From a virus: a DNA stretch of 58,712 nt. The DNA lies in the IMG/VR virus record IMGVR_UViG_3300042397_003130, positions 1 through 58,712 of that record, one strand, 5' to 3'. The translations under genes were made by a program, and so were the position numbers. Each line of letters begins with the position of its first letter. The first letter of the stretch is position 1. The notes under the pieces are model-generated. The model saw nothing but the letters and a program-made list of their open reading frames with translations, was not told where the DNA came from and made no database searches. Shown one piece after another: positions 35,982 through 57,582 of this stretch.

Positions 35982-36890
35982 ATGGGAGGAAACGTATTTA
36001 GTAGTACAGCACCGATAAAAAAAGAACATATTAAACCTACTCTATTAGAGTTCTTTAAGCAGTTCAAAACTATATTTCCAAAAGCAGAACCATTCTTTAG
36101 AGAAATGAAAACTTTAGGATCTGTAGGAAAGAAAGACTATTCAGGGGATATTGACCTAGCACTTGCCGGGTCATCCTTTGATGATATAAACGACTGGGGC
36201 TTAGATGAGAAACATGTTCAAGACCTATTTGTTGGATTTAAAAAGAGAGCTAGAACCTCTACAGATGATCAGTTAACAAAAAGAGCTGTAATTGTAGCAA
36301 TAGCACAAAAAATAGCAGAAGCGGATACAGAAATCATAGCAGATGTAAAAGGATCAGGAGCAGGAGCTCTATTCCTATTATTTCCTCAGTATGATGAAAA
36401 CGTAGAAGTAGTAGGCCAAAACGTTCAAATAGACGTAAATGTAGGAGATGTTGATTGGTTACAGTTTGCATACCATTCAGCTACATATTCAGGGAACGTA
36501 AAAGGATTGCATAGAACACAATTACTTGTATCTTTATTCTCTCAGAAAGGATATACATTCTCTCATAACTATGGGGTAAAAGATAAAGAATCTCAAGAGA
36601 TTGTAGCAAATCAACCGCAACAAGCAATAGACCTTTTGAATAAGGTATATGGTCTGAATCTAGATCGAGATACGATAGGAGACTATTTTAAATTAACAGA
36701 AGCACTGGAAGCGGGGTTATCTCCGGAAGATTTACACGCTGTATATGATACTTATTTAAAAATATTAGATAGTACAAGAGCAGATATACCAGGAGAATTG
36801 CAATCTTATTGGATAGAAAATCAAGAAAGATTAGGATTAAAAGGTAAGTTCTTACCAGATAATTCAAACTTAACACAATATAAAGTATAA
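35982..36890 (+). CDS. Nucleotidyltransferase-like protein
   Basis: A 302-residue protein with the polymerase-beta/NTase pattern: Gly46-Ser47 in KTLGSVGKKD, D56-I-D58 in SGDIDLALAG, and a third acidic residue D151 in NVQIDVNVG. This catalytic triad is shared by enzymes that add nucleotides to RNA, proteins or small molecules (CCA-adding, MNT/Fic-like and antibiotic NTases); the substrate is unknown. It has no leader of the internal-protein type. Its next neighbour begins with a second NTase domain, suggesting a pair working together. Confidence 0.75.
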   Translation: MGGNVFSSTAPIKKEHIKPTLLEFFKQFKTIFPKAEPFFREMKTLGSVGKKDYSGDIDLALAGSSFDDINDWGLDEKHVQDLFVGFKKRARTSTDDQLTKRAVIVAIAQKIAEADTEIIADVKGSGAGALFLLFPQYDENVEVVGQNVQIDVNVGDVDWLQFAYHSATYSGNVKGLHRTQLLVSLFSQKGYTFSHNYGVKDKESQEIVANQPQQAIDLLNKVYGLNLDRDTIGDYFKLTEALEAGLSPEDLHAVYDTYLKILDSTRADIPGELQSYWIENQERLGLKGKFLPDNSNLTQYKV

Positions 36891-36891
36891 T

Positions 36892-39615
36892 ATGTCAGGA
36901 GTAGCAGGAGGAAATAGAATCGAAAGAGGGGATGTACATAATACATTCAACAAATACGTAGAAGAAGTTCTAAGTAAAATACCAGGCTTTAAAAAAGCTT
37001 CTCTATCAGGATCTGTTAAAGCAGGTACAAAAGCTGACTTTGGAGACTTAGACATCATTGTATGGTTTGAAGGAGATGATAAGAGAGAAGTTAAACAAAG
37101 ACTTATCGATGCAGCTCTAGCTCTTCCGCAGAACATAATTGTACCTTTTAAATCAGAAAAATATACAGGAAGAAGGTACTATAACTCAGGTGAACTAATC
37201 TCAGTACTCTATCCAATTGTAGGAAAAGAAGATCAATACATTCAGGTTGATAATATTATATCTCTTACAGAAGAAGAGCATGCATTTAAAGGATCATTCT
37301 TAGACTTACCAGCTGAAAAGCAAGGACTATTAATAGGACTGGCAAAAGTAATCTTACTTGAACAAGACCCACAAGATGTATTTAGAAGAATGGGTATATC
37401 AAATGTACCTAATCTAGAAAAAGGTGAAGAGTTTGAATTTAACTTATCATCGGTAAAACTGTCTTTAAGAAAAGTAAAACTAGAAAACTTTAGAGAAATA
37501 GCAAGAGAAGAGGTATGGTCAACAACAGCTTGGGGTACTATTAAGATATTATTTAAAGGATTTAATATAGATGGTTCTTTCGAAGATCTATTAGATGATG
37601 TTGCTAAAAAACTTACAAATGCTAGATCTAAAAATAGAATAGCAGGTATTTTTAAATCAATGGTATCTGTTAAATCAGGAGAGGTTGGAACAGCCAAAGG
37701 AAAAGGTAAAGAAGATGCATTAGAAAAAGTAGCACAAACACTTGCAGAAGCTTTAGATGATGGATCTGAAGTAGTAGCACTTTATGCTGGAGGATTTAAA
37801 CCACCGCATTTAGCTCACTTTGAAAATGCTAAATTCCTATCTACTAAAGCAGATAAAATTGTAATATTTATCGGACCTAAGATTAGAGAAGGTGTAAAAA
37901 TTACAGCAGAACAATCAAAAGCTATTTGGGAAATCTATGCAAAATACATAAATGTACCAATGGAGATTGTAATCAGTAAAGTAACTCCAATATTAGATAC
38001 ATATGAATGGATTGATGCAAATCAAGACAAAGTAACAAACATTATTACAGGAGCTATGGCTGATGAAATGGGTAAATTCTCTGGAATAGAAAAGAAAAAG
38101 CAGAAAGGTGAATACAGTAACGTAGAAGTAAAAGAATTACCTGTCATCACAAACAAAGAGGACGATAAATTCTCAGCAACTGATATTAGAAAGTCGGAAA
38201 AGTTCTTATTAGAAGGTAAATGGATTCCAAAAGTAGTATCAAAAGAAGATAAGCAAGTAATCATAGATATCATAGCACCACAGCAAGAAGATTCAGTAGA
38301 AGATAAAATGTTAACTGCGGTAGATAATGTATTTGAAAGTTTCTTTCCAAAGAAAGTTAAGAAAGAAGTAATAAAAGAAGGATCAGCAGGAACACCAATA
38401 CAGCCATCAGGAGCTATTCCATCAAAAGATAGAGAAGATTTAATAGAACTTTTCGATCAATTAAGAACAACTATTGATTCAGACAAATATACAGTAGTAT
38501 TTGAGCAAGATAGAATAGGAGTGTACATAAAAACGTATGCAGATGTAAGCTTTGATCAAACACCTCAACAAAAGAGACTACCAGAAGGAGCAGAGCAGGA
38601 AAAATTTAACTATACACCATACATAGCATCTCTTTTAGAGTATATGATAGATCAGAAGATGAATATTACACCATTACCGGAAGTAAAAATAAGGTATGAC
38701 GAAAAACAAGCAAACGACTTCTTTGGTAAAACAGCTTACTATGATCCAACCAAGCAAGAAGTAGTACTCTATGTAATGAATAGACATCCTAAAGATGTTT
38801 GTAGATCATTCTCTCATGAAATGATTCACCATATGCAAAACATGGAAGGAAGACTTGAAGGATTAGCTGGAACTACTAATACAAACGAGGACGATTACTT
38901 ACAAGAGATAGAAAAAGAAGCTTACCTAAAAGGTAATATCACATTCAGAAATTGGGAAGACGGATTAAAAAATAATAATAAAGAGGTTATGGCAGAAGGA
39001 AGGTATGATACAATAACAAACCGAGTTAGTAGTGTTATTTTCAATCACTGGAAAAGAGAAGTAGAAGAAGGTAGTAAACTCACCAGTTTTAGTGAATTTA
39101 TTGAATCAGATGACTTAGCTTTCGATGTACAGGCTACACTAGTACTAAAACCAGGTACTAAGAAACTTAAAGTAGACGGAGGAGCAGACTACTCACCAGA
39201 AGGAGAATATGATGATGCTATTATGGTAACTTTCCAAATTGATCCTGCAATGCTACCTGAATTTTGGGAAGAAATTTCCATGAATCTAAAAGATGTTATT
39301 AGACATGAAATAGAGCATTTAACTCATAGTGATTCTGATAACCTAAAATCAGGTAAGTACATGGAAGATGATCAGTACATACGAGATTTAGTCAAACTAA
39401 AATTGTTAAAAAACAAAGAGTACTTTCTTTTACCAAAAGAAGTAGATGCAAACCTACAAGGAATGTACCTTAGAGCTAAAAAAGAAAAAAGACCATTTGC
39501 AGATGTTGTAAACACATACTTAGATGCTCAAAAAATTACATCTAAGGAAAAAGAAGAGATACTAACATTATGGCGTAAGAGATTACCTGCATTAGGGTTA
39601 AAACAAACATTATAA
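36892..39615 (+). CDS. Fusion: NTase, NadD/cytidylyltransferase-like domain and two HExxH metallopeptidase-like domains
   Basis: A 907-residue protein. (a) Residues 1-130: NTase core with G40-S41, D52-L-D54 and D120 (IQVDNI). (b) About 295-450: NMNAT/cytidylyltransferase-like domain with HxxH at H306-L-A-H309 (GGFKPPHLAHFENAKFL) and S428-A-T-D-I-R433 matching the (S/T)xxxR-type second motif. (c) About 520-690: metallopeptidase-like domain with H642-E-M-I-H646 and a downstream E(x)EA-type ligand. (d) About 710-907: second HExxH, H805-E-I-E-H809, followed by KEVDANL. Gp21-type sites I494-K-E496|G and M700-A-E702|G lie between b/c and c/d. The combination is unusual; a polyprotein cut into separate enzymes is possible. 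Confidence 0.75.
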   Translation: MSGVAGGNRIERGDVHNTFNKYVEEVLSKIPGFKKASLSGSVKAGTKADFGDLDIIVWFEGDDKREVKQRLIDAALALPQNIIVPFKSEKYTGRRYYNSGELISVLYPIVGKEDQYIQVDNIISLTEEEHAFKGSFLDLPAEKQGLLIGLAKVILLEQDPQDVFRRMGISNVPNLEKGEEFEFNLSSVKLSLRKVKLENFREIAREEVWSTTAWGTIKILFKGFNIDGSFEDLLDDVAKKLTNARSKNRIAGIFKSMVSVKSGEVGTAKGKGKEDALEKVAQTLAEALDDGSEVVALYAGGFKPPHLAHFENAKFLSTKADKIVIFIGPKIREGVKITAEQSKAIWEIYAKYINVPMEIVISKVTPILDTYEWIDANQDKVTNIITGAMADEMGKFSGIEKKKQKGEYSNVEVKELPVITNKEDDKFSATDIRKSEKFLLEGKWIPKVVSKEDKQVIIDIIAPQQEDSVEDKMLTAVDNVFESFFPKKVKKEVIKEGSAGTPIQPSGAIPSKDREDLIELFDQLRTTIDSDKYTVVFEQDRIGVYIKTYADVSFDQTPQQKRLPEGAEQEKFNYTPYIASLLEYMIDQKMNITPLPEVKIRYDEKQANDFFGKTAYYDPTKQEVVLYVMNRHPKDVCRSFSHEMIHHMQNMEGRLEGLAGTTNTNEDDYLQEIEKEAYLKGNITFRNWEDGLKNNNKEVMAEGRYDTITNRVSSVIFNHWKREVEEGSKLTSFSEFIESDDLAFDVQATLVLKPGTKKLKVDGGADYSPEGEYDDAIMVTFQIDPAMLPEFWEEISMNLKDVIRHEIEHLTHSDSDNLKSGKYMEDDQYIRDLVKLKLLKNKEYFLLPKEVDANLQGMYLRAKKEKRPFADVVNTYLDAQKITSKEKEEILTLWRKRLPALGLKQTL

Positions 39616-39628
39616 AAATAAAAAGGTT

Positions 39629-40216
39629 ATGGGAAATTTAGTAGACTTATTGCTTACAGAAGAAGATTTTAACCCTCCTTATCAGATATACTGTGATATG
39701 GACGGAGTATTAACAGATTTTGAAAACAGATTTGTTGAGATGTTAAGACAAGAAGGACCAAAGTACTATTCAAAAGAGGTTATAAACCAAGTAACAAGAC
39801 CTAAACACTTTGAGAAACTTGAAGGAGAAACAGAGTTTTGGAACTTCATTGATAACCATATAGGATTAGAATTCTGGTCAGGAATGAATTGGATGCCAAA
39901 TGGAAGAGAAATATGGTCTTTTATACAGCCATACAGTCCAACTATACTTACATCTCCATCTAGACAGAACACTTCAAGACTGGGGAAAAGACTGTGGGTA
40001 AAAGAACATCTAATACCTGCCCCTCCTGTAGAATTCAGGTTCGGAGCAAGTAAGTCGGATTTTGCAAATGAAAAAGCTATATTAATAGATGATAGACCTT
40101 CTAACCTAGCTGCATTTGCTGCAAAAGGAGGGATAGCATTAGAGGTAAAAGACGGAGAAATACAATCGGTTATTAATAAATTAAAAGAACTTGGTTATGG
40201 GCGAGAGCTTACTTAA
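39629..40216 (+). CDS. HAD-superfamily 5'-nucleotidase-like protein with leader-like start
   Basis: A 195-residue protein. D23-M-D25-G-V in YCDMDGVLTDFE is the HAD motif I (catalytic Asp nucleophile and acid), LTSPSRQ serves as motif II, and ILIDDRPSNL (D154, D155) as motif IV. The arrangement fits phage 5'(3')-deoxyribonucleotidase-like phosphatases. It starts MGNLVDLLLTEEDFNPP, with L-T-E|E at 9-11, an extension that resembles the shared leaders and would not be needed for catalysis. If packaged, it would be a second enzyme delivered into the host. It ends just inside the following gene. Confidence 0.78.
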   Translation: MGNLVDLLLTEEDFNPPYQIYCDMDGVLTDFENRFVEMLRQEGPKYYSKEVINQVTRPKHFEKLEGETEFWNFIDNHIGLEFWSGMNWMPNGREIWSFIQPYSPTILTSPSRQNTSRLGKRLWVKEHLIPAPPVEFRFGASKSDFANEKAILIDDRPSNLAAFAAKGGIALEVKDGEIQSVINKLKELGYGRELT

Positions 40217-42591: not shown

Positions 42592-44463
42592 ATGAAGAAA
42601 TTAATAAGAATAGTAGAAGCAGGAGAAAAGACAGCATTTATCCAGACTTCAAAAGGTGAGAAGAAGACAATCGAGTATAAGAAAGACGATGAACTCACAG
42701 GTTTGAAAGATAATCAGGATATTGCAAAAATAGATACTGCAGATGGTAAAAGGATAAAAGAAGAAGTACGTAAATATACTACTCAAGAATCAGCAGCCGT
42801 AGGAAAAGCAGTAGCTAAATCTCTTGTAAAAGTTCTTAGAGCTCAAGGAGATGAAATCTCAAAACTAAAACTTACAGGAATAGGAGTTGATAAATTCAAT
42901 ATTCATGTTGAATACGGAAATGATAAGGGAGTAGACACTTTTAAATTTGACCTTAACCCAGAAGGAACAGCAATTTTATTAGATTTAGGAACTGAGCCAA
43001 TAGAGCTAGTAGACTTTGTGATAACACAAGGAAATACTGTCTCTATGCCGACTCCTGAACTAGAAGATAAACTAAGTGATGCAATGAAAAAGTATGTAGG
43101 AGAACCTACAGACACTGAGTACGATGATATGGCAGCAATGCAAACACCAACAGATCCTTCACAGATGAATAAAAACATAGCAGAAGGTAATTTCGACTCA
43201 AAAGACTTTAAGCCATATGCTACCAAAGATCCTAACAATCCTAACTTTTTAAAAGTATTCATTAAATACCCAGAAGGAGTAGGGCACTTAAAAGCTTACG
43301 GACAAAAAACATTGTCTGGACAAGAGAGAGAGTTTGGAATTAAAAAAGCAATGGAAATCGGACAAGCAGTAGCAGATAAGTTACAAGCAAAATATAACAT
43401 AGAAGATATCGATGTATCGGATAATGGAGCTGGAAAGGTAATAGTATTTGCAGTATCGGATGATTTTATTAAAATGAATGCACCTGCTTTACAAGAAGAT
43501 GACCACTTACAGCCAGATGACGAATCTTCAATGGCAAAAGCACAGTTAAGGTCTATTCAATCAAACGCAAGTAAGATGATGGATCTATTAGGAGATGATG
43601 ATCAATTAGATGCATGGGTTCAAGCTAAACTGACAAAAGCAGAAGATTATCTGGATTCAGCAGCAGGATATACAGAGTCAGAAAAGCATCAAGATCAAGA
43701 AACTAGAATAGTTGCATTAGCATTAAATGAAAAGAAAGCAACATACTGCGGAAGATGTGGACATACCCATGTTAAAGGTACACCTTGTCCAAGGCCTTTT
43801 AAAAATGAAGCTTTAGATGCCGTTGGAAAAGAAGATGACGATATCAATAATGATGGAAAAGTCGATAAGACAGATAAATATTTAAAAAATAGAAGAAATA
43901 CTATTTCTAAAAAAATAACTAAAGAGGAAATAAGGGAGTTAATGTTAGAGGCATACATTGAAGTTCTTAGAGAAGAAGAAGGAGCAGTATTAGAAACATC
44001 TACAGATGAAATACTGGGAAAATTTCCTACAGTAAAGAAAGCAATAACATCTCTATTCACAAAAGAATACCCAGAATTTGTAACAGACATAAGATGGGTA
44101 GCACCAAAACCTTCCACATTTGCAGTTGATCTTAAAAACGGTCAATCCTTTAATTTAAAATGGATGGGTAAAGGGTTTGAAGCACAAATAGAAGGTAAAA
44201 AATACTATTTAGATACTCTACAAGACTATCAACAAGCTTTAGACAAAATAAACGATATTCTTAAAAACGGACCAATCTCTCAAGGTGAAGAACCAGGTGG
44301 AGAAGAATTCGGAGCAGATCCAGCAGCACCAGCAGGTGGAGGTGGTGGAGACTTTCCAGGTGGAGAAGCCGGAGGAGAACCAGCAGCTGAATTTGGAGCA
44401 GAAGAAACACCAGCAGGTGAAGAAGAAGCAGGAACAGAACCAGAAACACCAGAAGCACTTTAA
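42592..44463 (+). CDS. Large leader-bearing protein with EF-hand-like and Cys-knuckle motifs
   Basis: A 623-residue acidic protein. It starts [16 protein letters not shown] (I7-V-E9|A). Cys386, Cys389 and Cys399 with histidines between ([15 protein letters not shown]) form a zinc-knuckle-like motif; D417-x-N419-x-D421-G-x-V-D425-x2-D428 is a textbook EF-hand/dockerin calcium loop. The C-terminal 60 residues are Gly/Glu/Pro-rich and disordered. Numerous L/I-x-E sites suggest cleavage into peptides if it enters the prohead. Probably a core or internal head protein; no enzyme motif is seen. Confidence 0.65.
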
Positions 44464-45501: not shown

Positions 45502-46518
45502 ATGGCAGATAATTTTAATTTAAGATCATTCTTAACAGAGAATAACCTTACAAAAAATGCACAACTTCTTAAAGAAGCAAGAGTAGACGGATTTGATGAG
45601 AATCAAAAAGCTTTCCAAGTAAGTTTCGTAAACAAATACGGAGGAGGAGACTCTAGAATACTAAATGCAGAAACACCAGAACAAGCAGAAGAGGTTTTTG
45701 CAGATATCTTTATAGACAACCCAGACTTCGTACAGTCAATAAAATCAGTACAGCCTTACCAAGTACCAGCTGCTAAACCACAAGCAGAACCACAACCAGG
45801 ATTAGAAGGGGTAAATTACAGCTCTATTCAAATCGATGGAATCGACCCAGACGATTACCCTGACTTTGTAGATGCATATATTATATCTGCAGAATTTGAA
45901 GATGGAACTCCTTTAAGTGAGGAAGAGTTGGAGCAATTAACAGACGAATTATACCAATCAGGAGAGTTAGGAGATATGGCTGCTCAATCGCTTTATGAAA
46001 ATAATAAAAAACCAATGATGAAAGAAACAAAATTAACTGCTAAAGAGAGAAGACTTGTTGAAATGGTTCAAGATGCTTTAGGTATAGCACCACAGGCTGT
46101 AGCAGAAGAAGTACCAATGGCAGAAGAAGTACCAATGGCAGAAGAAGAAATGGTACAAGAAAAACCTCTTCCAAAATACAATTCAATTGAAGAATTGATG
46201 AAAGAGATTGAACACGGAACAAACGAAGCAGCTCACAAATATAAAATGGATGAGATGAAAAGAGTTTACGAAGCTTTAGAAGCTAAAGTAGGGTCTTTAG
46301 AAGAAGGAGAGCATGCTGAGCATATCGATCAAAAAGCTGTTAAACAAATGCGTAAAGATATTGCAGCATTAAGAAAAGCAGAAGAGAAATTAAGAAAAGA
46401 ATTCGATAAAAAATTCTCAGGTAAAGAAAAGAAAGAAACTCCAGTTAAAGAAAAAGCTACTGAAGCTTTACAGGAAGGATTTGACTTAAGAAAATTCTTA
46501 GCAGAAAATAGAAAATAA
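45502..46518 (+). CDS. Protein with leader motif at both ends (candidate internal head/core protein)
   Basis: A 338-residue acidic protein. The N-terminus MADNFNLRSFLTENNLTKNA then L23-K-E25|A is a class A leader; the C-terminus GFDLRKFLAENRK repeats the same motif. The middle is acidic and coiled-coil (AEHIDQKAVKQMRKDIAALR). It holds an 18-base tandem repeat coding EEVPMA. It is the last gene before the terminator and the terminase gene, where T4 has gene 16, but I see no small-terminase signature. Confidence 0.65.
   Translation: MADNFNLRSFLTENNLTKNAQLLKEARVDGFDENQKAFQVSFVNKYGGGDSRILNAETPEQAEEVFADIFIDNPDFVQSIKSVQPYQVPAAKPQAEPQPGLEGVNYSSIQIDGIDPDDYPDFVDAYIISAEFEDGTPLSEEELEQLTDELYQSGELGDMAAQSLYENNKKPMMKETKLTAKERRLVEMVQDALGIAPQAVAEEVPMAEEVPMAEEEMVQEKPLPKYNSIEELMKEIEHGTNEAAHKYKMDEMKRVYEALEAKVGSLEEGEHAEHIDQKAVKQMRKDIAALRKAEEKLRKEFDKKFSGKEKKETPVKEKATEALQEGFDLRKFLAENRK
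46102..46149 (+). repeat. 18-bp tandem repeat inside the 45502 gene
   Basis: GCAGAAGAAGTACCAATG at 46102-46119 and again at 46120-46137, with a partial third copy from 46138. It encodes repeated (A)EEVPM. Confidence 0.85.
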
Positions 46519-48204: not shown

Positions 48205-50058
48205 ATGGCAGAAAGAAATTTATTCACCTCACTCCAGAGATTATTCTCAACTGATATATTAGTTAGAAATGTAGGAGGAGATGAGTTAAAGATTGCTGAT
48301 ATTAATCACATACAGTCGACAGGGAAATATCAAACCAATTCACTATTGGATAGATTCTCTCGTTTATATATCTACAATAATAAGAACATCTTTAACCCAA
48401 ACCTTAATTACCAGACATTAAGGATACAACTATACTCAGACTATGAAGCAATGGACACAGATCCACTTATTGCTTCTACTTTAGATATCTTAGCAGATGA
48501 ATCTACATTGAAGAGTGCAATGGGGGAGGTTCTTTCAATTAAATCTACAGACGAAAACATACAAAGAGTCCTTTATAATTTATACTACGATGTATTAAAC
48601 ATCGAATTTAACCTATGGTCATGGGTTAGAAATATGTGCAAGTACGGGGACTTCTTTTTAAAATTAGAAGTATCAGAAAAGTTTGGAGTATATAATGTTA
48701 TTCCATATACAGTTTACCATATGGTAAGACATGAGGGGATGGATAAAGATGATCCAACCAAAGTAACATTCTCAATCGATCCAGACGGATTAGCTTCTTC
48801 ATCAGATCCAAATTATATTCCAAATAACGATAAGAATGTAATTAAATTAGACAACTACGAAGTAGCACACTTTAGATTAATATCAGATACAAATTACCTA
48901 CCATACGGTAGATCTTATATTGAACCAGCTCGTAAAATATATAAACAATTAACTTTAATGGAGGATGCAATGTTGATTCATAGAATCATGAGAGCTCCTG
49001 AGAAGAGAATGTTCTACATTAACGTAGGATCTATTCCACCAAATGAAGTTGAGCAGTTCATGCAAAAAACAATTAACAATATTAAGAAAACTCCTTATGT
49101 AGATCCACAAACAGGTCAATATAATTTGAAATTCAACATGCAAAACATGATGGAGGATTTCTACTTACCAGTTAGAGGTGGAGATACATCTACAAGAATT
49201 GAGACTACTAAAGGACTTGATTACGATGGAACAAATGATATTGAGTACTTAAGAGATAAGATGTTTGCAGCATTAAAAGTGCCTAAAGCATACTTTGGAT
49301 TTGAGAAAGATCTTACAGGTAAAGCAACTCTTGCAGCAGAAGATATCCGTTTTGCTAGAACAGTAGAAAGACTTCAAAGAATTGTAGAGAGTGAATTAAC
49401 TAAAATAGGATTAGTACATTTATATTCACAAGGATTTGACAAAGAGTCGTTAGTAAACTTTGAAATTAAGTTGACTACTCCTTCTATTATTTACGAACAA
49501 GAAAAAGTAGCTCTTTGGAAAGAGAAAGTTGATTTAGCAACTCAAATGCAAGCAACTAAATTATTCTCTTCAGATTATATTTACGATATGTTATTTGATA
49601 TCTCAGAAGATAACTATAACGAAATGAGAGAACTTATCAGAGAGGATGCTAAAAGAGAGTTTAGATTATCTCAAATTGAAAACGAAGGTAATGACCCAGT
49701 AGCAACAGGAATGTCTTTTGGAACACCTCACGATTTAGCTTCAATTTACGGAAGAGAGCAAGGTGAATTACCGGCAGGGTATGATGAAAATCTACCTGGA
49801 AGACCTAGAGAAAAAATGTCTGTAATTGGAACAAATGCAGATCCTATGGGTGGGAGAGATAGATTAGGAGTTCAAGGAATGAAGGGCGGCTTTCCAAGCG
49901 ATAATGAAAACGTTAAAGAAGGCATAAATAATACAATGTCAGTTTTTCTTAGAAACAAGAATATATTCACTGGTAAAAAGCAAAACCTCTTTGAACAAGA
50001 GGCGGAGAAAGAGCTAGATCTTTTAAATGAAGAGAATATTAAGGATTTAGATAACTAG
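48205..50058 (+). CDS. 20: Portal vertex protein (gp20)
   Basis: A 617-residue protein matching T4 gp20-type portals: ALDILADEST-like segment (LDILADESTLKSAMGEVLSI), HFRLISDTNYLPYGRSYIEP, then MLIHRIMRAPEKRMFYINVG and YLRDKMFAALKVPKAYFGFE followed by LTGKATLAAEDIRFAR, all near-universal in this family. The dodecameric portal nucleates head assembly and is the DNA channel. It lies between terminase and prohead protease as in T4. Confidence 0.93.
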   Translation: MAERNLFTSLQRLFSTDILVRNVGGDELKIADINHIQSTGKYQTNSLLDRFSRLYIYNNKNIFNPNLNYQTLRIQLYSDYEAMDTDPLIASTLDILADESTLKSAMGEVLSIKSTDENIQRVLYNLYYDVLNIEFNLWSWVRNMCKYGDFFLKLEVSEKFGVYNVIPYTVYHMVRHEGMDKDDPTKVTFSIDPDGLASSSDPNYIPNNDKNVIKLDNYEVAHFRLISDTNYLPYGRSYIEPARKIYKQLTLMEDAMLIHRIMRAPEKRMFYINVGSIPPNEVEQFMQKTINNIKKTPYVDPQTGQYNLKFNMQNMMEDFYLPVRGGDTSTRIETTKGLDYDGTNDIEYLRDKMFAALKVPKAYFGFEKDLTGKATLAAEDIRFARTVERLQRIVESELTKIGLVHLYSQGFDKESLVNFEIKLTTPSIIYEQEKVALWKEKVDLATQMQATKLFSSDYIYDMLFDISEDNYNEMRELIREDAKREFRLSQIENEGNDPVATGMSFGTPHDLASIYGREQGELPAGYDENLPGRPREKMSVIGTNADPMGGRDRLGVQGMKGGFPSDNENVKEGINNTMSVFLRNKNIFTGKKQNLFEQEAEKELDLLNEENIKDLDN

Positions 50059-51161: not shown

Positions 51162-52247
51162 ATGAGAACTTTACAAGAAAAATATAACGCAATTCAAGAG
51201 GGAAAATTCTCTAAAGAACATTTCTTAGCAGAAGCTAGAATGCAACAACCACAGCTAATTACTCGTTTTAACGGATACGATGATGCTGTTCAGATTTTAA
51301 AGAACAGAGGAATGATTCAAGAAGCTAGAGTAGAAGAAGCTAGACTTACTAAGAATAACCTAACTGACTACAGATATAAACCAACTAACGAAATGGATAA
51401 GTATCCATACGAACAAATTCTTAGAGGAATTAGAGTTGAGTTAGAAGTAGCAGGAGTTTTTGGGACACCAACAGCAGAAGAATATGCAAAAGCATTAGCA
51501 AAAGTATCTAAAAACTTAGCAAAAGATTCTATCTTCTATACAAATCAATTAGCAGGAGTTAATCCAAAAGTGGACCTTCACGATAAGATGGTAGATGCTA
51601 CAGCAAAAAATACTGTAGATACTTTTAACGGTATGAAAAAAGCAGAGTTAAAAGAAGGCTTTAAAAAACTTATCAAAAGAGTATTATCTGAAGAGGTAAT
51701 GGATGTTGAAAGCTACAAAGAAGAGGAAGAGGTATACGAAATGTATGGAGAAGATGATATCGATTACGATGATGAGAACTTCTCAGATCCAATGATTGAT
51801 GGAGAATTAGACGAAGCTACAGATGCAGAAGCAGATAAAAACATGGTTCGTAAATTAATGACTATGTACGAAACTGAACCTTCTAAGTTTGAAAAATTAC
51901 ACAAGCAAGCACAAACTCAAGCATCAACTACTAAGGATATTAAATTCAAACATTTACTATCTCTAATTGATAGAGCAAAAGCAGGAGCTTTGCAGAGCTT
52001 AGCAAATCAAGATAGATTCGAAGCTGACAGAGAAGGAATGGATGAAAATGCGGATAAATTTTATGCTCCAACTTACATAGTACAGAAATACGGTGCTGCA
52101 AAAGCTAAAGAAATTGAAGCTAATATTGAAGATGAAGGAGCTAATACATGGGATTTATTTACATCTTTAGAAACACCAAAAGAAGTAGATGATTTTATTG
52201 GCGGTTTTACTATGGATGAATCAATATCATTAAAAGATTTACTATAA
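51162..52247 (+). CDS. Probable prohead core protein
   Basis: A 361-residue acidic helical protein. It begins MRTLQEKYNAIQEGKFSKEH (I11-Q-E13|G) and contains an internal class-B-like helix (KEGFKKLIKRVLSEEV). Many L/I-x-E sites (e.g. ILE-, IQEA, FLAEA) mean a gp21-type protease would fragment it. It is coupled to the protease gene by TAATG. Its location just before the protease fits a core component; no family name known. Confidence 0.65.
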   Translation: MRTLQEKYNAIQEGKFSKEHFLAEARMQQPQLITRFNGYDDAVQILKNRGMIQEARVEEARLTKNNLTDYRYKPTNEMDKYPYEQILRGIRVELEVAGVFGTPTAEEYAKALAKVSKNLAKDSIFYTNQLAGVNPKVDLHDKMVDATAKNTVDTFNGMKKAELKEGFKKLIKRVLSEEVMDVESYKEEEEVYEMYGEDDIDYDDENFSDPMIDGELDEATDAEADKNMVRKLMTMYETEPSKFEKLHKQAQTQASTTKDIKFKHLLSLIDRAKAGALQSLANQDRFEADREGMDENADKFYAPTYIVQKYGAAKAKEIEANIEDEGANTWDLFTSLETPKEVDDFIGGFTMDESISLKDLL

Positions 52248-52828
52248 TGAACAATCCACTATTAATAAATGTAACTCCTTTCAAAGGACTTCTTACCGAA
52301 TCAAAAACTAAACCAGGAGTTTTTGAGGTAACAGGTATCATGCAAAGAGCAGGAGCTAAGAATCAAAACGGAAGAATCTATAAAAGAGAAATTCTTGAAC
52401 AAGAAGTTCAAAACTACATAGAGAATTTTGTTAAAGTTGGAAATGCTTACGGAGAATTAGATCATCCAGAATCAGCAATCGTATCTTTAAAGAATGCATC
52501 ACATGTTGTAAAAGACTTATGGTGGGATGGAGATGATTTGATGGGTAAAGTAGAATTACTAAACACACCTTCAGGAAATATCGTGAAAGAGATATTAAGA
52601 GGAGGGCATACAATTGGAATCTCTTCAAGAGGAACAGGATCAGTAACACAGACAAACGAAGGAACTTTAATGGTTCAACCAGACTTTGAATTAGTATGCT
52701 GGGATTTCGTTTCTAATCCTTCTACACAAGGAGCATTTATGAATCCAATTTCATTGAATGAAGGGAAACAAGCAGTAGGAAAATACGATAGATTAGATTC
52801 TATTATTAACAATATACTAAGAGCATAA
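52247..52828 (+). CDS. 21: Prohead maturation protease (gp21-like, S80 family)
   Basis: A 193-residue protein. Catalytic-type residues are His73 in GELDHPESA and Ser126/Ser127 in GHTIGISSRGTGS, in the order and spacing of T4 gp21-type serine proteases (herpesvirus-protease-like fold). It contains LVCWDFVSNPST typical of the family. T4 gp21 cuts prohead proteins after (I/L)-x-E; the leaders and repeats described in this window carry such sequences. It overlaps its neighbours at both ends (TAATG), so it is made together with the core proteins. Confidence 0.9.
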   Translation: MNNPLLINVTPFKGLLTESKTKPGVFEVTGIMQRAGAKNQNGRIYKREILEQEVQNYIENFVKVGNAYGELDHPESAIVSLKNASHVVKDLWWDGDDLMGKVELLNTPSGNIVKEILRGGHTIGISSRGTGSVTQTNEGTLMVQPDFELVCWDFVSNPSTQGAFMNPISLNEGKQAVGKYDRLDSIINNILRA

Positions 52829-53713: not shown

Positions 53714-54922
53714 ATGTCAAACAAAGATTTATTAAAGCAAGCTATTGCTGAAGCTAAAACTATTCGTGAAGCTGCAATCGCCAACGCTAAAGAAGCTTTA
53801 GAAGAAACATTAACTCCACACTTAAAAGACATGCTTGCTGCAAAATTGCAAGAAATGGAAGAAAAAGAAGATGAGGAAGTAATGGATGAAAACATCTACG
53901 AAGCTGAAGAAGAAGAGGTAGAAGCAGAAGAAGGAGAAGAGGCTGAAGAAGAGGGAGCTGAAGAGGAAAGCGAAGAAGGAGAAGAAGAAGTGGAAATCGA
54001 AGATATGTCTATCGAGGACTTAAAAGATCTTATCCGTGATATCGTTTCACAAGAAGTAGGTCACGACGAATCAGAAGAAGAATTAACAGGTATGGAAACT
54101 CCAGAAGGAGAAGAAGATATGGTAAGCATGGACGGTGATTCAGAAGAGATCGATATTAACGAATTGTTAGCAGAATTAGCTCAAGAGGATACATTATCGG
54201 AAGGCTTTGAAGAGTGGTTAGATAGAGTTTCTGCTCAAATGGAGAAATTTGGTAAAGAAAATCCAGCTATTCAAGCTATCGAAAAAGCAGTAGCAGCAGC
54301 TCAAGAAAAAGCTAAGAAAGCAGGATTAACAGGTACAGGTATGACAAAAGGTCATAAAGTATTTGAAGGAGAATCTGAAAACTTAGAAGAAGGCTTTGAA
54401 GAGTGGTTAGATAGAGTTTCTGCTCAAATGGACAAATTCGGTAAAGAAAATCCAGCTATTCAAGCAATTGAAAGAGCAATAGCAGCAGCACAGGAGAAAG
54501 CTAAAAAAGCAGGATTAACAGGACACGGTATGACAAAAGGTCATAAAATAAGTGAAGAATCTGAAGACTTAGCAGAAGCATTAGCAACTGTAGAAGCTCT
54601 AAGAGGACAACTTCAAGAAGTTAACCTTTTAAATGCAAAATTACTTTATGTAAATAAAGTATTCAAATCAAACAACTTATCTGAAGGTCAAAAAGTAAAC
54701 GTTATCGCAGCTTTTGACAAAGCAGAGACAGTTAAAGAAGTAAAATTAGTTTTCGAAACAGTTTCTAAAAACGTAGTTGCTAAACCAGCTACAATTAAAG
54801 AGCACAGATCTTTTGCTTCTAAAGCAACAGGTAATGCACAAACAACTGCACCAAAAGAAATCTTATCAGAAGTATCTGAGCAAGTATCAAGATGGCAGAA
54901 GTTAGCAGGAATTATTAAATAA
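53714..54922 (+). CDS. 22: Prohead scaffold protein (gp22-like) with internal duplication
   Basis: A 402-residue, highly acidic protein. The N-terminus is an Ala-rich helix (LLKQAIAEAKTIREAAIANA), followed by a Glu-rich stretch. Residues 164-226 and 227-288 are two copies of a 63-residue unit beginning GFEEWLDRVSAQM, each preceded by an L-x-E|G site (L161-S-E163 and L224-E-E226). The C-terminus (LLNAKLLYVNKVFKSNNLSE, then KVNVIAAFDKAETVKEVKLV and a final RWQKLAGI) is the conserved gp22 end. Gp22 forms the prohead core and is destroyed by gp21 into small peptides. Lies just before gp23 as in T4. Confidence 0.88.
   Translation: MSNKDLLKQAIAEAKTIREAAIANAKEALEETLTPHLKDMLAAKLQEMEEKEDEEVMDENIYEAEEEEVEAEEGEEAEEEGAEEESEEGEEEVEIEDMSIEDLKDLIRDIVSQEVGHDESEEELTGMETPEGEEDMVSMDGDSEEIDINELLAELAQEDTLSEGFEEWLDRVSAQMEKFGKENPAIQAIEKAVAAAQEKAKKAGLTGTGMTKGHKVFEGESENLEEGFEEWLDRVSAQMDKFGKENPAIQAIERAIAAAQEKAKKAGLTGHGMTKGHKISEESEDLAEALATVEALRGQLQEVNLLNAKLLYVNKVFKSNNLSEGQKVNVIAAFDKAETVKEVKLVFETVSKNVVAKPATIKEHRSFASKATGNAQTTAPKEILSEVSEQVSRWQKLAGIIK
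54202..54579 (+). repeat. 189-bp tandem duplication in the scaffold gene
   Basis: AGGCTTTGAAGAGTGGTTAG begins at 54202 and again at 54391, 189 bases apart. The two units encode nearly identical 63-residue segments; the DNA differs at scattered positions, so the duplication is not fresh. Confidence 0.85.
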
Positions 54923-54949: not shown

Positions 54950-56608
54950 ATGGAATTAAATCAATTATTCGAAGGGGCTAACAACTACAAGACATTACAA
55001 GCAGATGCTGCTCGTTTGTCAGGTAAATGGGCTAAATCAGGTTTATTAGAAGGAATTTCTAATGAAATCGAGAAAAACAACATGGCTATGATTCTTGAGA
55101 ATCAAGCAAAACAAATCGTATCAGAAGGAAATACTACAGGTACAGGTGCAATGGGTACTTCTACAGGTGGTGCTGAGCAATGGGCTGGAGTAGCTTTACC
55201 ATTAGTACGTAAAGTATTCGCTCAAATCGCAGCTAAAGACTTCGTTTCTGTACAACCAATGAATTTACCTTCAGGACTTGTATTTTACTTAGACTTTAAA
55301 TACGGTACAAACACAGTAGGTAGAGCAGCAGACGAAAGTTTATACGGTAACGTATCTGACGCTAACAGCAAAATGTCAATTGACGAAGATGTAAACGGAG
55401 GTTTATACGGAGCAGGACAGTTTGGTTACTCAATCAACTCTGCATCTTCTACAGTAGTAACAGGACAGACTACAGGATCTGCTACATCAGCATCTTTAGG
55501 ATACCAAGACGGATTAGTTCTTTCTGACTACCGCACAGTAGCATTCCCTACTTCAAGTATGGTAGGATTTGACGCTAAAGGTGTTAGAGCATTTAGATTA
55601 TATTCTGCATCAGTAGATCTTACATCTAACCCAGAATTAACTTTCTTATCAGGTTCTACTGGTACAAACGGAACACACGTATTGTTCGTAGTTAAAACAA
55701 CTGCAGCAGGTGGTGCTTATACTGCAAACGCTGCAGGTACATTTAATGCAACTGTAAAATACCAAATGCAACCAACTGATACTTCAAGAGGTGATTTTGA
55801 AGATAACGGAACTAACCCACAAGGTAACAACAACGGAACTATTAAAATTCCTGAAATCAACGTATCATTAGCTTCTGAAGCTATCGTTGCTAAAACAAGA
55901 AAATTAAAAGCACAATGGACTCCAGAGTTCGCACAAGACTTAAACGCTTACCATTCAATTGATGCTGAAGCAGAATTAACTTCATTATTATCAGAGTACA
56001 TCTCTATGGAGATTGACTTAGAGTTAATGGATATGTTAATCCAAGATGCAGCTACAACTGAAAGATGGTCAGCAGTTAACAACAAAAACTGGAATCCAGC
56101 AACAAGTAACTGGGAAACAGGTACTTTTAGTGCAGGAACTAGCTTCTACAACACTCAAGGTCAATGGTTTGGAACTTTAGGTACTAAAGTACAAAAAGTA
56201 TCTAACAAAATTCACCAAAAAACTTTAAGAGGTGGAGCTAACTTCTTAGTAGTATCTCCAACTGTAGCTACAATCTTAGAATCAATTCCAGGATATGCAG
56301 CAGATACAAACGGTGATAAAATGGACTTTGCAATGGGAGTTCAGAAAGTAGGTAACTTAAATTCTCGTTTCAGAGTTTACAAAAACCCTTACATGACTGA
56401 AAACGTAATCTTATTAGGTTACAGAGGATCTCAATTCTTGGAAACAGGTGCAGTTTATGCTCCATATATTCCATTAATCATGACTCCATTAGTATACGAT
56501 CCAACTACCTTCACTCCAAGAAAAGGTATCATGACTCGTTACGCTAAGAAAATGATCAGACCAGAATTCTACGGTAAAATCTTCGTTAGCGATATCGCTA
56601 CTGTATAA
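54950..56608 (+). CDS. 23: Major capsid protein (gp23)
   Basis: A 552-residue protein. Residues 75-120 (AEQWAGVALPLVRKVFAQIA, then VSVQPMNLPSGLVFYLDFKY) are the hallmark of gp23 proteins, and the C-terminus (LVYDPTTFTPRKGIMTRYAK then PEFYGKIFV) also matches. Its first 60 residues form the helical segment cut off in T4; candidate gp21-type sites are L32-L-E34|G and I48-L-E50|N, and V57-S-E59|G is near the T4 position. It uses some CGT arginine codons, uncommon in the fibre genes, consistent with high expression. Confidence 0.95.
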   Translation: MELNQLFEGANNYKTLQADAARLSGKWAKSGLLEGISNEIEKNNMAMILENQAKQIVSEGNTTGTGAMGTSTGGAEQWAGVALPLVRKVFAQIAAKDFVSVQPMNLPSGLVFYLDFKYGTNTVGRAADESLYGNVSDANSKMSIDEDVNGGLYGAGQFGYSINSASSTVVTGQTTGSATSASLGYQDGLVLSDYRTVAFPTSSMVGFDAKGVRAFRLYSASVDLTSNPELTFLSGSTGTNGTHVLFVVKTTAAGGAYTANAAGTFNATVKYQMQPTDTSRGDFEDNGTNPQGNNNGTIKIPEINVSLASEAIVAKTRKLKAQWTPEFAQDLNAYHSIDAEAELTSLLSEYISMEIDLELMDMLIQDAATTERWSAVNNKNWNPATSNWETGTFSAGTSFYNTQGQWFGTLGTKVQKVSNKIHQKTLRGGANFLVVSPTVATILESIPGYAADTNGDKMDFAMGVQKVGNLNSRFRVYKNPYMTENVILLGYRGSQFLETGAVYAPYIPLIMTPLVYDPTTFTPRKGIMTRYAKKMIRPEFYGKIFVSDIATV

Positions 56609-56694: not shown

Positions 56695-57582
56695 ATGATT
56701 ATAGGAGAATTAACCTGGCAGCAGTTCAAGACTTTAGATTCAATAAGAAGCCTAAACGAAAACCAGCAAATGGAACATTATTACAAGTATTTAGTAGAGT
56801 TAAATGATTGGATAAGTCATCAGAATAAAGGACCCCTAACCGCAGATGATGGAGTAATAACTTGTGCAGATGGAATAGATGTAGTATTTCTAGTAGACTA
56901 TACAGGTAGTATGGGGGATGCAATTAATGCTATTAAAGCAGCAATAGCTTCTATTGTCCAGGCAATTGTAACAGAGTCGGGAAATAACTATAGACTAGGA
57001 CTAGTACTATTTGATGAATATAATCCAAATGACACACACCCTGCACTGATAAACAAATACCTACCTAAAGCAGCCTACACCAGTTTACCTGCCGCTCAAA
57101 GATACACAAACCTATATGACATTGCTGGCACAGCCTCTGATAGAATTCAATACATAACTGCGATGGAGATGTTATCGCAAAATAATGAAAGTAGTTTTAC
57201 TACACAGCTTAGTGTACTAAATACTGTAGATTTTCCTATAGGATATGGAGTAAGTGGTCCTGAACCTGCTGATATGGGTATCGATAGAATAGTAAACCAT
57301 GATATAGTAGGAACCTTCAGAGAAAATGTATCTAGATTAATAGTCCTTATTACAGATCAACCTTCATCAGGTGACGATGATATTAATAATGCAACAGATA
57401 CAGCATTTGTACAAACATTAGTAGAAGATTGTAATACAGAAGGAATTAAGGTATTACTTATGAAAGCATCAGCAACTTCGTATGCTCCTCTAGAAACATT
57501 AGCACTAGGAACATCAGGATTAGTAACAGATTCATATGACCCAGAAACAATCATAGAAAGTATACAGAATATTTGCTTATAA
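56695..57582 (+). CDS. von Willebrand factor A domain protein
   Basis: A 295-residue protein. The vWA domain starts at about residue 60: IDVVFLVDYTGSMGDAINAI contains the MIDAS metal motif (D68, T70, S72), with FDEYNP and LIVLITDQPSSGDDD as further strands. vWA domains bind protein partners through a metal ion. It stands alone between two terminators, directly after the capsid gene, so it is probably a late gene, perhaps decorating the virion or binding the host surface. No signal peptide or membrane segment. Confidence 0.8.
   Translation: MIIGELTWQQFKTLDSIRSLNENQQMEHYYKYLVELNDWISHQNKGPLTADDGVITCADGIDVVFLVDYTGSMGDAINAIKAAIASIVQAIVTESGNNYRLGLVLFDEYNPNDTHPALINKYLPKAAYTSLPAAQRYTNLYDIAGTASDRIQYITAMEMLSQNNESSFTTQLSVLNTVDFPIGYGVSGPEPADMGIDRIVNHDIVGTFRENVSRLIVLITDQPSSGDDDINNATDTAFVQTLVEDCNTEGIKVLLMKASATSYAPLETLALGTSGLVTDSYDPETIIESIQNICL

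Follow-up and report, generated by a model that had tools for sequence, protein, structure and literature searches.

The locus and its four-domain protein

The window, by which we mean the whole stretch of DNA analysed here, corresponds to a 58,712-base IMG/VR record of a T4-like virus of Flavobacterium. A cultured relative is known, Flavobacterium phage vB_FspM_immuto (Immutovirus), of which isolates on Flavobacterium sp. LMO8 have been deposited. On the plus strand, a gene for a 907-residue protein (36892..39615) has a primase/exonuclease pair on one side and the head genes on the other. An earlier note, made from the sequence alone, had described this reading frame, and we confirmed that it is open throughout from its ATG. 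The immuto protein QQO91862.1 is 93.6% identical over the full length and has the same four-domain architecture, although it is annotated only as NadR and its other domains and sites are undescribed. The note's further statement that no described protein has this combination of domains holds for function, but the architecture itself had already been deposited. Searches of named phages with the full protein and with an LNE-type relative returned immuto as the sole relative; in Synechococcus phages there were weak matches to the third domain.

The window also contains a T4-type head module, with the portal gene gp20 at 48205, a T4 gp21-like prohead protease of family S77 (52247..52828, plus strand; Peptidase_S77, E 2e-35) and the major capsid protein gp23 (54950..56608, plus strand; Gp23, E 6e-82). 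All 16 gp23-bearing records that were examined for an S77 protease had one. T4 gp21 cleaves after L/I-X-E (PMC9026906). In gp23 of the window and 17 relatives, [IL]VxE is kept at the expected end of the propeptide, the window having VSE59↓G (the arrow marks the putative cut), and the protease carries LxE sites of its own near both ends (LTE18↓S and LNE172↓G). Across the window, [LIV]xE occurs within the first 32 residues in 25 of 30 head-side genes versus 9 of 29 tail-side genes (p 6e-5). Two other products of this region were noted in passing. An acidic scaffold-like protein (53714-54922) contains the tandem repeat LSE↓GFEEWLDRV / LEE↓GFEEWLDRV, bounded by LxE↓G sites, and the protein encoded immediately 3' of gp23 (56695-57582) has LNE near its N-terminus and, as an impression only, a vWA-like look.

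Viral contigs were scanned four times, once for each domain of the 907-residue protein (D1 to D4), which yielded about 200 loci; about 100 relatives entered the family comparison. AlphaFold models were built on alignments of relatives from these loci and cover residues 447-907 (A1) and 1-499 (A2). D1 (residues 1-286; 36892..37749, plus strand) is a Pol-beta superfamily nucleotidyltransferase. It matched Pol lambda/beta in Foldseek (E 1.4e-7, prob 1.00), all hallmarks of such enzymes are present (GS motif, DxD, third Asp and the Pol-beta fold), and G40, D52, D54 and D120 are kept in 36/36 relatives. D2, together with a helical linker (residues 287-496; 37750..38379, plus strand), is a HIGH-superfamily, NMNAT/PPAT-like nucleotidyltransferase, as judged by profile matches to PPAT/NMNAT structures (E 2e-8 to 1e-4) and by the Pfam family CTP_transf_like, which was matched in 55 of 72 relatives. 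It has the (H/T)xGH-type and (I/F)S(S/A)TxxR motifs of this superfamily; H309 and R433 are kept in 70/70 relatives, and the position of H306 is occupied by H or T. D2 resembles the PPAT, NMNAT and cytidylyltransferase families alike, which does not single out NMNAT specificity.

The two C-terminal domains resemble zincins. D3 (residues 497-702; 38380..38997, plus strand) has its HExxH at residues 642-646 (38815-38829), and H642/E643/H646 and E674/E676 are kept in 50/50 relatives. D4 (residues 703-907; 38998..39612, plus strand) has HExxH at 805-809 (39304-39318), with H805/E806/H809 kept in 58/58 and E850 in 57/57 relatives. Matches of D3 to Peptidase_M91 and other zincin families were weak. 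A fold search of the PDB with D3 and D4 placed IrrE/PprI and selecase among the top matches, all of them weak and none below E 0.001, and solved structures searched with the whole protein and with alignments gave no match for either domain; comparison with IrrE-like viral models gave prob 1.0. No relatives of D4 were found in cellular genomes. In Pfam, matches to the domains stay below the cut-offs, and this is probably why annotation has recognised nothing but an NMNAT.

The residues that the earlier note had named (G40-S41, D52-x-D54, D120, H306-x2-H309, S428/R433, the HExxH centres at 642 and 805, and the downstream EKEAYL and KEVDANL segments) all lie where it had put them. The folds that it had proposed were also recovered: Pol-beta for D1, PPAT/NMNAT for D2 and, weakly in the PDB, a zincin-like fold for D3 and D4. 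On sequence grounds, D3 and D4 are classed as zincin-like, with HExxH plus a downstream Glu, and the occurrence of the named catalytic residues is not due to chance; the active-site geometry, including that of a gluzincin site, was not measured.

Prohead-protease motifs at the domain borders

All three domain borders carry the T4 gp21 motif, with L, I and M at P3. The earlier note had listed two of these sites, IKE496↓G497 between D2 and D3 (38371..38382, plus strand) and MAE702↓G703 between D3 and D4 (38989..39000, plus strand), both at the positions given there; it had overlooked the third, LAE286↓A287, between D1 and D2 (37741..37752, plus strand). In the AlphaFold models, IKE496↓G497 and MAE702↓G703 lie in or beside stretches with pLDDT<50 (495-502 and 697-701), and LAE286↓A287 closes the helix (268-286) that connects D1 and D2. 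Most D1-type relatives have [VIL]xE at the D2/D3 position. A count of motifs within this single protein was discarded as evidence, being uninformative: [LIVM]xE[GASN] occurs eight times (286, 333, 441, 482, 496, 565, 702 and 726), and only three matches are at borders. Since the count alone is unconvincing, the weight rests on position and on conservation at the three borders.

Among 64 distinct junctions at the D4 border, P1 is Glu in 62, P1' is Gly in 63 and P3 is hydrophobic in 62 (L 35, M 22, V 3, I 2), whereas P2 is free, with 12 different residues. Methionine at P3 is found in the clade of the 907-residue protein; the classical gp21 P3 is L/I. When similar upstream sequences were collapsed, and the leaders of the stand-alone D4 proteins L061/L065 (ending in INE and LNE) were counted, 16 of the 18 independent upstream contexts matched the motif exactly, even though both P2 and the upstream module vary. 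The exceptions at this border are L077/L078 (TLE) and L108, in which LNE ends two residues earlier. At the D2 border, [LIVMF]xE was present within the 16 residues before the first D2 strand in 46/47 leader-bearing and 26/26 distinct D1-D2 contexts, that is in 72/73 contexts with upstream sequence versus 25% of random windows. Of the distinct D2-first proteins without a leader, whose chain begins at the fold itself, 0/2 had the motif.

The motif also marks the places where differently built proteins cease to be homologous. Breakpoints defined without reference to the motif fell near [LIVM]xE in 44 of 85 distinct module pairs, versus 21+-3.6 at random. In the same 85-pair test, the control motifs [LIVM]xD, xK, xQ and xN showed no enrichment; E.[LIVM] was mildly in excess, the linkers being rich in Glu. 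An origin of the sites by chance, composition or generic linkers was rejected on these matched controls. An early version of the breakpoint test (z about 11-23) was judged to be inflated by shared descent, and the counts of distinct pairs and independent contexts were used instead. Even so, the junction and breakpoint counts are not completely independent, as junctions are related by descent. The clustering of domain limits with L/I/M-x-E sites, from which the earlier note had inferred a polyprotein, was thus observed both in the 907-residue protein and family-wide.

Module shuffling and leaders

Among distinct ORFs, we observed the architectures D2-D3-D4 (44), D1-D2-D3-D4 (23), D1-D2-D3 (11) and a permuted D2-D4-D3 (3), and D2, D3 or D4 also occur as single-domain ORFs. 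Modules inserted between the domains in relatives include zinc ribbons, HAD, NT5C, HD, DUF6267 and DUF6934. In L195/L197, a chain without zincins joins DUF6267 to D2, and the border between them reads LIAE↓D. The 1322-residue protein of L068 contains ten [LI]NE tripeptides versus 1.45 on shuffling. In L059/L060, a frameshift detaches D4, so that the site is lost and the catalytic residues are retained, and the detached ORF begins at an ATG at the border; this case carries little weight, as the two contigs may be one phage. Two further loci stood out. A truncated 1428-residue chain (L062:3-4286) carries D4 together with modules of the zinc ribbon, HAD, HD, NTase and DUF6267 types, most of them behind an LxE-like site, and in L057:3456-6615 unrelated sequence splits the gene between D2 and D3, the downstream ORF keeping LIE↓G before D3.

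Some modules occur on their own behind a short leader that ends in the same motif. The stand-alone D4 of L061/L065 is a 214-residue protein with the 14-residue leader MKYIKQFENFLINE↓GRYD, which resembles the leader MKTYQEFIAE↓A of T4 IPII/IPIII (read from the T4 record). Leaders of D2-first relatives comprise MNSLVKSLIQPLLE. Both the D2-first group and the stand-alone D4 have leaders of this capsid-targeting type, except that some D2-first proteins begin directly at the fold. The 907-residue protein itself begins MSGVAGGNRI and lacks such a leader, which would be about 10-20 residues long, at its N-terminus.

Upstream of the four-domain gene, an NTase-like gene (35982..36890, plus strand) starts M↓GGNVF, and this second NTase module reaches one and the same N-terminus by three routes: directly after the start codon in the window, behind the leader MITFKQYILQE↓GGNV in L203, and internally behind ESIIEE↓GGNIF in L062. 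Downstream, an NT5C-like nucleotidase gene (39629..40216, plus strand; Pfam NT5C, E 1.7e-8) has the leader MGNLVDLLLTE↓EDF, and the NT5C module is fused C-terminally in L109 and L074, in L109 behind VMKE↓E.

A putative head-cargo polyprotein and its alternatives

We propose, with a probability of roughly 0.7, that the 907-residue protein is a head-cargo polyprotein that is cut by a gp21-type protease at the domain borders and whose pieces are injected; cleavage, packaging, injection and targets are all inferred. The polyprotein would be synthesised late, along with the capsid genes, and would then enter the prohead, where the T4 gp21-type protease (52247-52828) would cut after E286, E496 and E702. 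The predicted products are a Pol-beta NTase of about 286 residues, a HIGH nucleotidyltransferase of about 210 residues and two active zincins of about 206 and 205 residues, fragments of about 24-32 kDa. These pieces would be retained in the head, like the T4 internal proteins and Alt, enter the host with the DNA and act early, with nucleotides or nucleic acids, as well as host proteins, as their targets. As an inference from the comparison of relatives, the polyprotein reading is well supported. Its two chief weaknesses are that the chain has no N-terminal leader and that no proteomic data were found for the phage or its relatives; the occurrence of the motif at five more places within the chain, the non-classical P3=M of this clade and the leaderless D2-first relatives also count against the proposal.

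In T4, IPI-III and Alt are gp21-processed cargo with short leaders ending in L/I-x-E, and S77 protease, portal and capsid families are likewise present in the window. T4 substrates lose terminal propeptides or, in the case of scaffold, are cut to waste peptides. The 907-residue chain differs from T4 cargo in having its sites between folded, apparently active enzyme domains, from which we infer several cargo proteins per chain, and it differs from T4 internal proteins in lacking an N-terminal leader. A second point of comparison is the polyvalent proteins (Iyer et al. 2017, PMC5512222), which combine disparate domains in one chain, frequently include zincins and have shuffled architectures, as does the present family; their injection with DNA and release by embedded zincins have been proposed there. 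The 907-residue protein agrees with the polyvalent proteins in having at least two disparate domains, modular architectures and a zincin with HExxH plus Glu (the fold match being weak in the PDB and stronger to IrrE-like viral models); as to processing by its own zincin, the indirect evidence points to gp21 instead. In the parts of the article consulted, no prohead-protease sites at domain borders are described for polyvalent proteins, and the word "cytidylyltransferase" is absent from the article. In the open literature, we found no report of a polyprotein cut by a prohead protease in tailed phages; subscription literature was not covered. The new element would be prohead-protease sites between folded enzyme domains, by which maturation would split one chain into several cargo proteins.

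The best surviving rival, although itself unlikely, is that no cleavage takes place and the protein acts as an intact multidomain enzyme, the LxE linkers being flexible hinges or places where recombination is favoured. Measurements of cleavage are lacking, adjacent genes are frequently fused and split in these phages, and the mild excess of the E.[LIVM] control is what Glu-rich linkers give. Against this reading, P3 and P1 are fixed where P2 and the upstream sequence vary, the matched D, K, Q and N motifs are not enriched, and the motif also ends the leaders of stand-alone modules, where no hinge is needed.

It is also improbable that the chain is cut by its own zincins, before packaging or after injection, without involvement of gp21. 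The two zincins with invariant catalytic residues would allow this, and autoprocessing of multidomain injected proteins is proposed by Iyer et al. (PMC5512222). The border motif, however, is that of T4 gp21, and in the same phages it also occurs in proteins without zincins (gp23, the NT5C and NTase leaders and the DUF6267-D2 fusion). Sites in such a zincin-less chain, L195/L197, argue against zincin self-processing as a general rule.

We give still less credence to an ordinary early cytosolic enzyme of NAD or nucleotide metabolism ("NadR") that is not head cargo. The NMNAT/NadR annotation and the position of the gene between the primase/exonuclease pair and the head genes are compatible with this, but the NadR-specific kinase and repressor domains were not seen, and it is not obvious what a metabolic enzyme would gain from being fused to two zincins. 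Least credible of all is an internal start at Met700 (MAE↓G) that makes D4 additionally to or instead of cleavage: P3 is Met in 22/64 junctions and the frameshifted D4 ORF of L059/L060 begins at the border ATG, but in 35/64 junctions P3 is Leu and hence no ATG is available, the D1/D2 and D2/D3 sites have no Met, and such a start gives no reason for the conservation of E702.

Related enzymes are known from other phages. The "cytitidyltransferase" of cyanophages and pelagiphages (T4-GC190, phrog_395/phrog_3041) belongs to the same superfamily as D2 (hhalign prob 95.8), and DUF6267 (phrog_455), which is fused to D2 in L195/L197, adjoins the cytidyltransferase gene in S-PRM1. In those phages, the two are mostly separate genes, without D1, D3 or D4. 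Virions of T4-like cyanophages, S-SM1, S-CREM2 and S-SCSM1 among them, have yielded NMNAT-like/cytidylyltransferase proteins (PMC3037559, PMC10665884, PMC9602691); the cyanophage authors caution that contamination of virion preparations is a possible source of such enzymes (PMC10665884).

If the head-cargo polyprotein reading is true, capsid maturation is polyprotein processing as well, and one gene delivers several effectors in stoichiometric amounts. Cleavage in the prohead would then be an alternative to embedded zincins for freeing injected domains, the zincins themselves becoming candidate effectors, and the LxE grammar would expose head-packaged effectors, mostly of unknown function, directly in the genomes of T4-like phages. 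By a narrow balance, we also favour a wider reading, in which a broad group of T4-like aquatic phages makes true polyproteins of up to about nine modules that gp21 cuts within the prohead into separate early effectors. The modules, set apart from each other by [LI]-x-E, would include NTase, HIGH transferase, zincins, HAD, HD, zinc ribbon, DUF6267 and others. As these modules are also found as single genes whose capsid-targeting leaders end in LxE, LxE would be both the terminator of a packaging tag and a joint for recombination and processing.

Several neighbouring proteins are of interest in their own right. Short leaders recur as MKxSxLxxxIxEE/V (31474, 32063, 42104, 50939), for which MKKSxLxxIIxE was noted among the head-side genes, and MKLLQLLKEA (40954, 41177), all ending in I/L-x-E; these are likely to be capsid-targeting tags. 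Four head-region proteins (32914, 35483, 45502, 53077) have the leader FDLRKFLVENKLTxNSKLLxE in common, and in one of them (45502-46518) it appears again at the C-terminus, behind LQE↓G. A 623-residue protein (42592-44463) with the leader IVE↓A, an internal IAE↓G and LNE before a zinc ribbon is a second polyprotein candidate, and has a D-x-D-x-DG segment in common with cyanophage proteins. Finally, in Pelagibacter phage HTVC008M (L237), neighbour proteins begin MYNDLLVE↓D and MIPFILKE↓G, the latter being kinase-like, which suggests that the leader grammar extends to pelagiphages.
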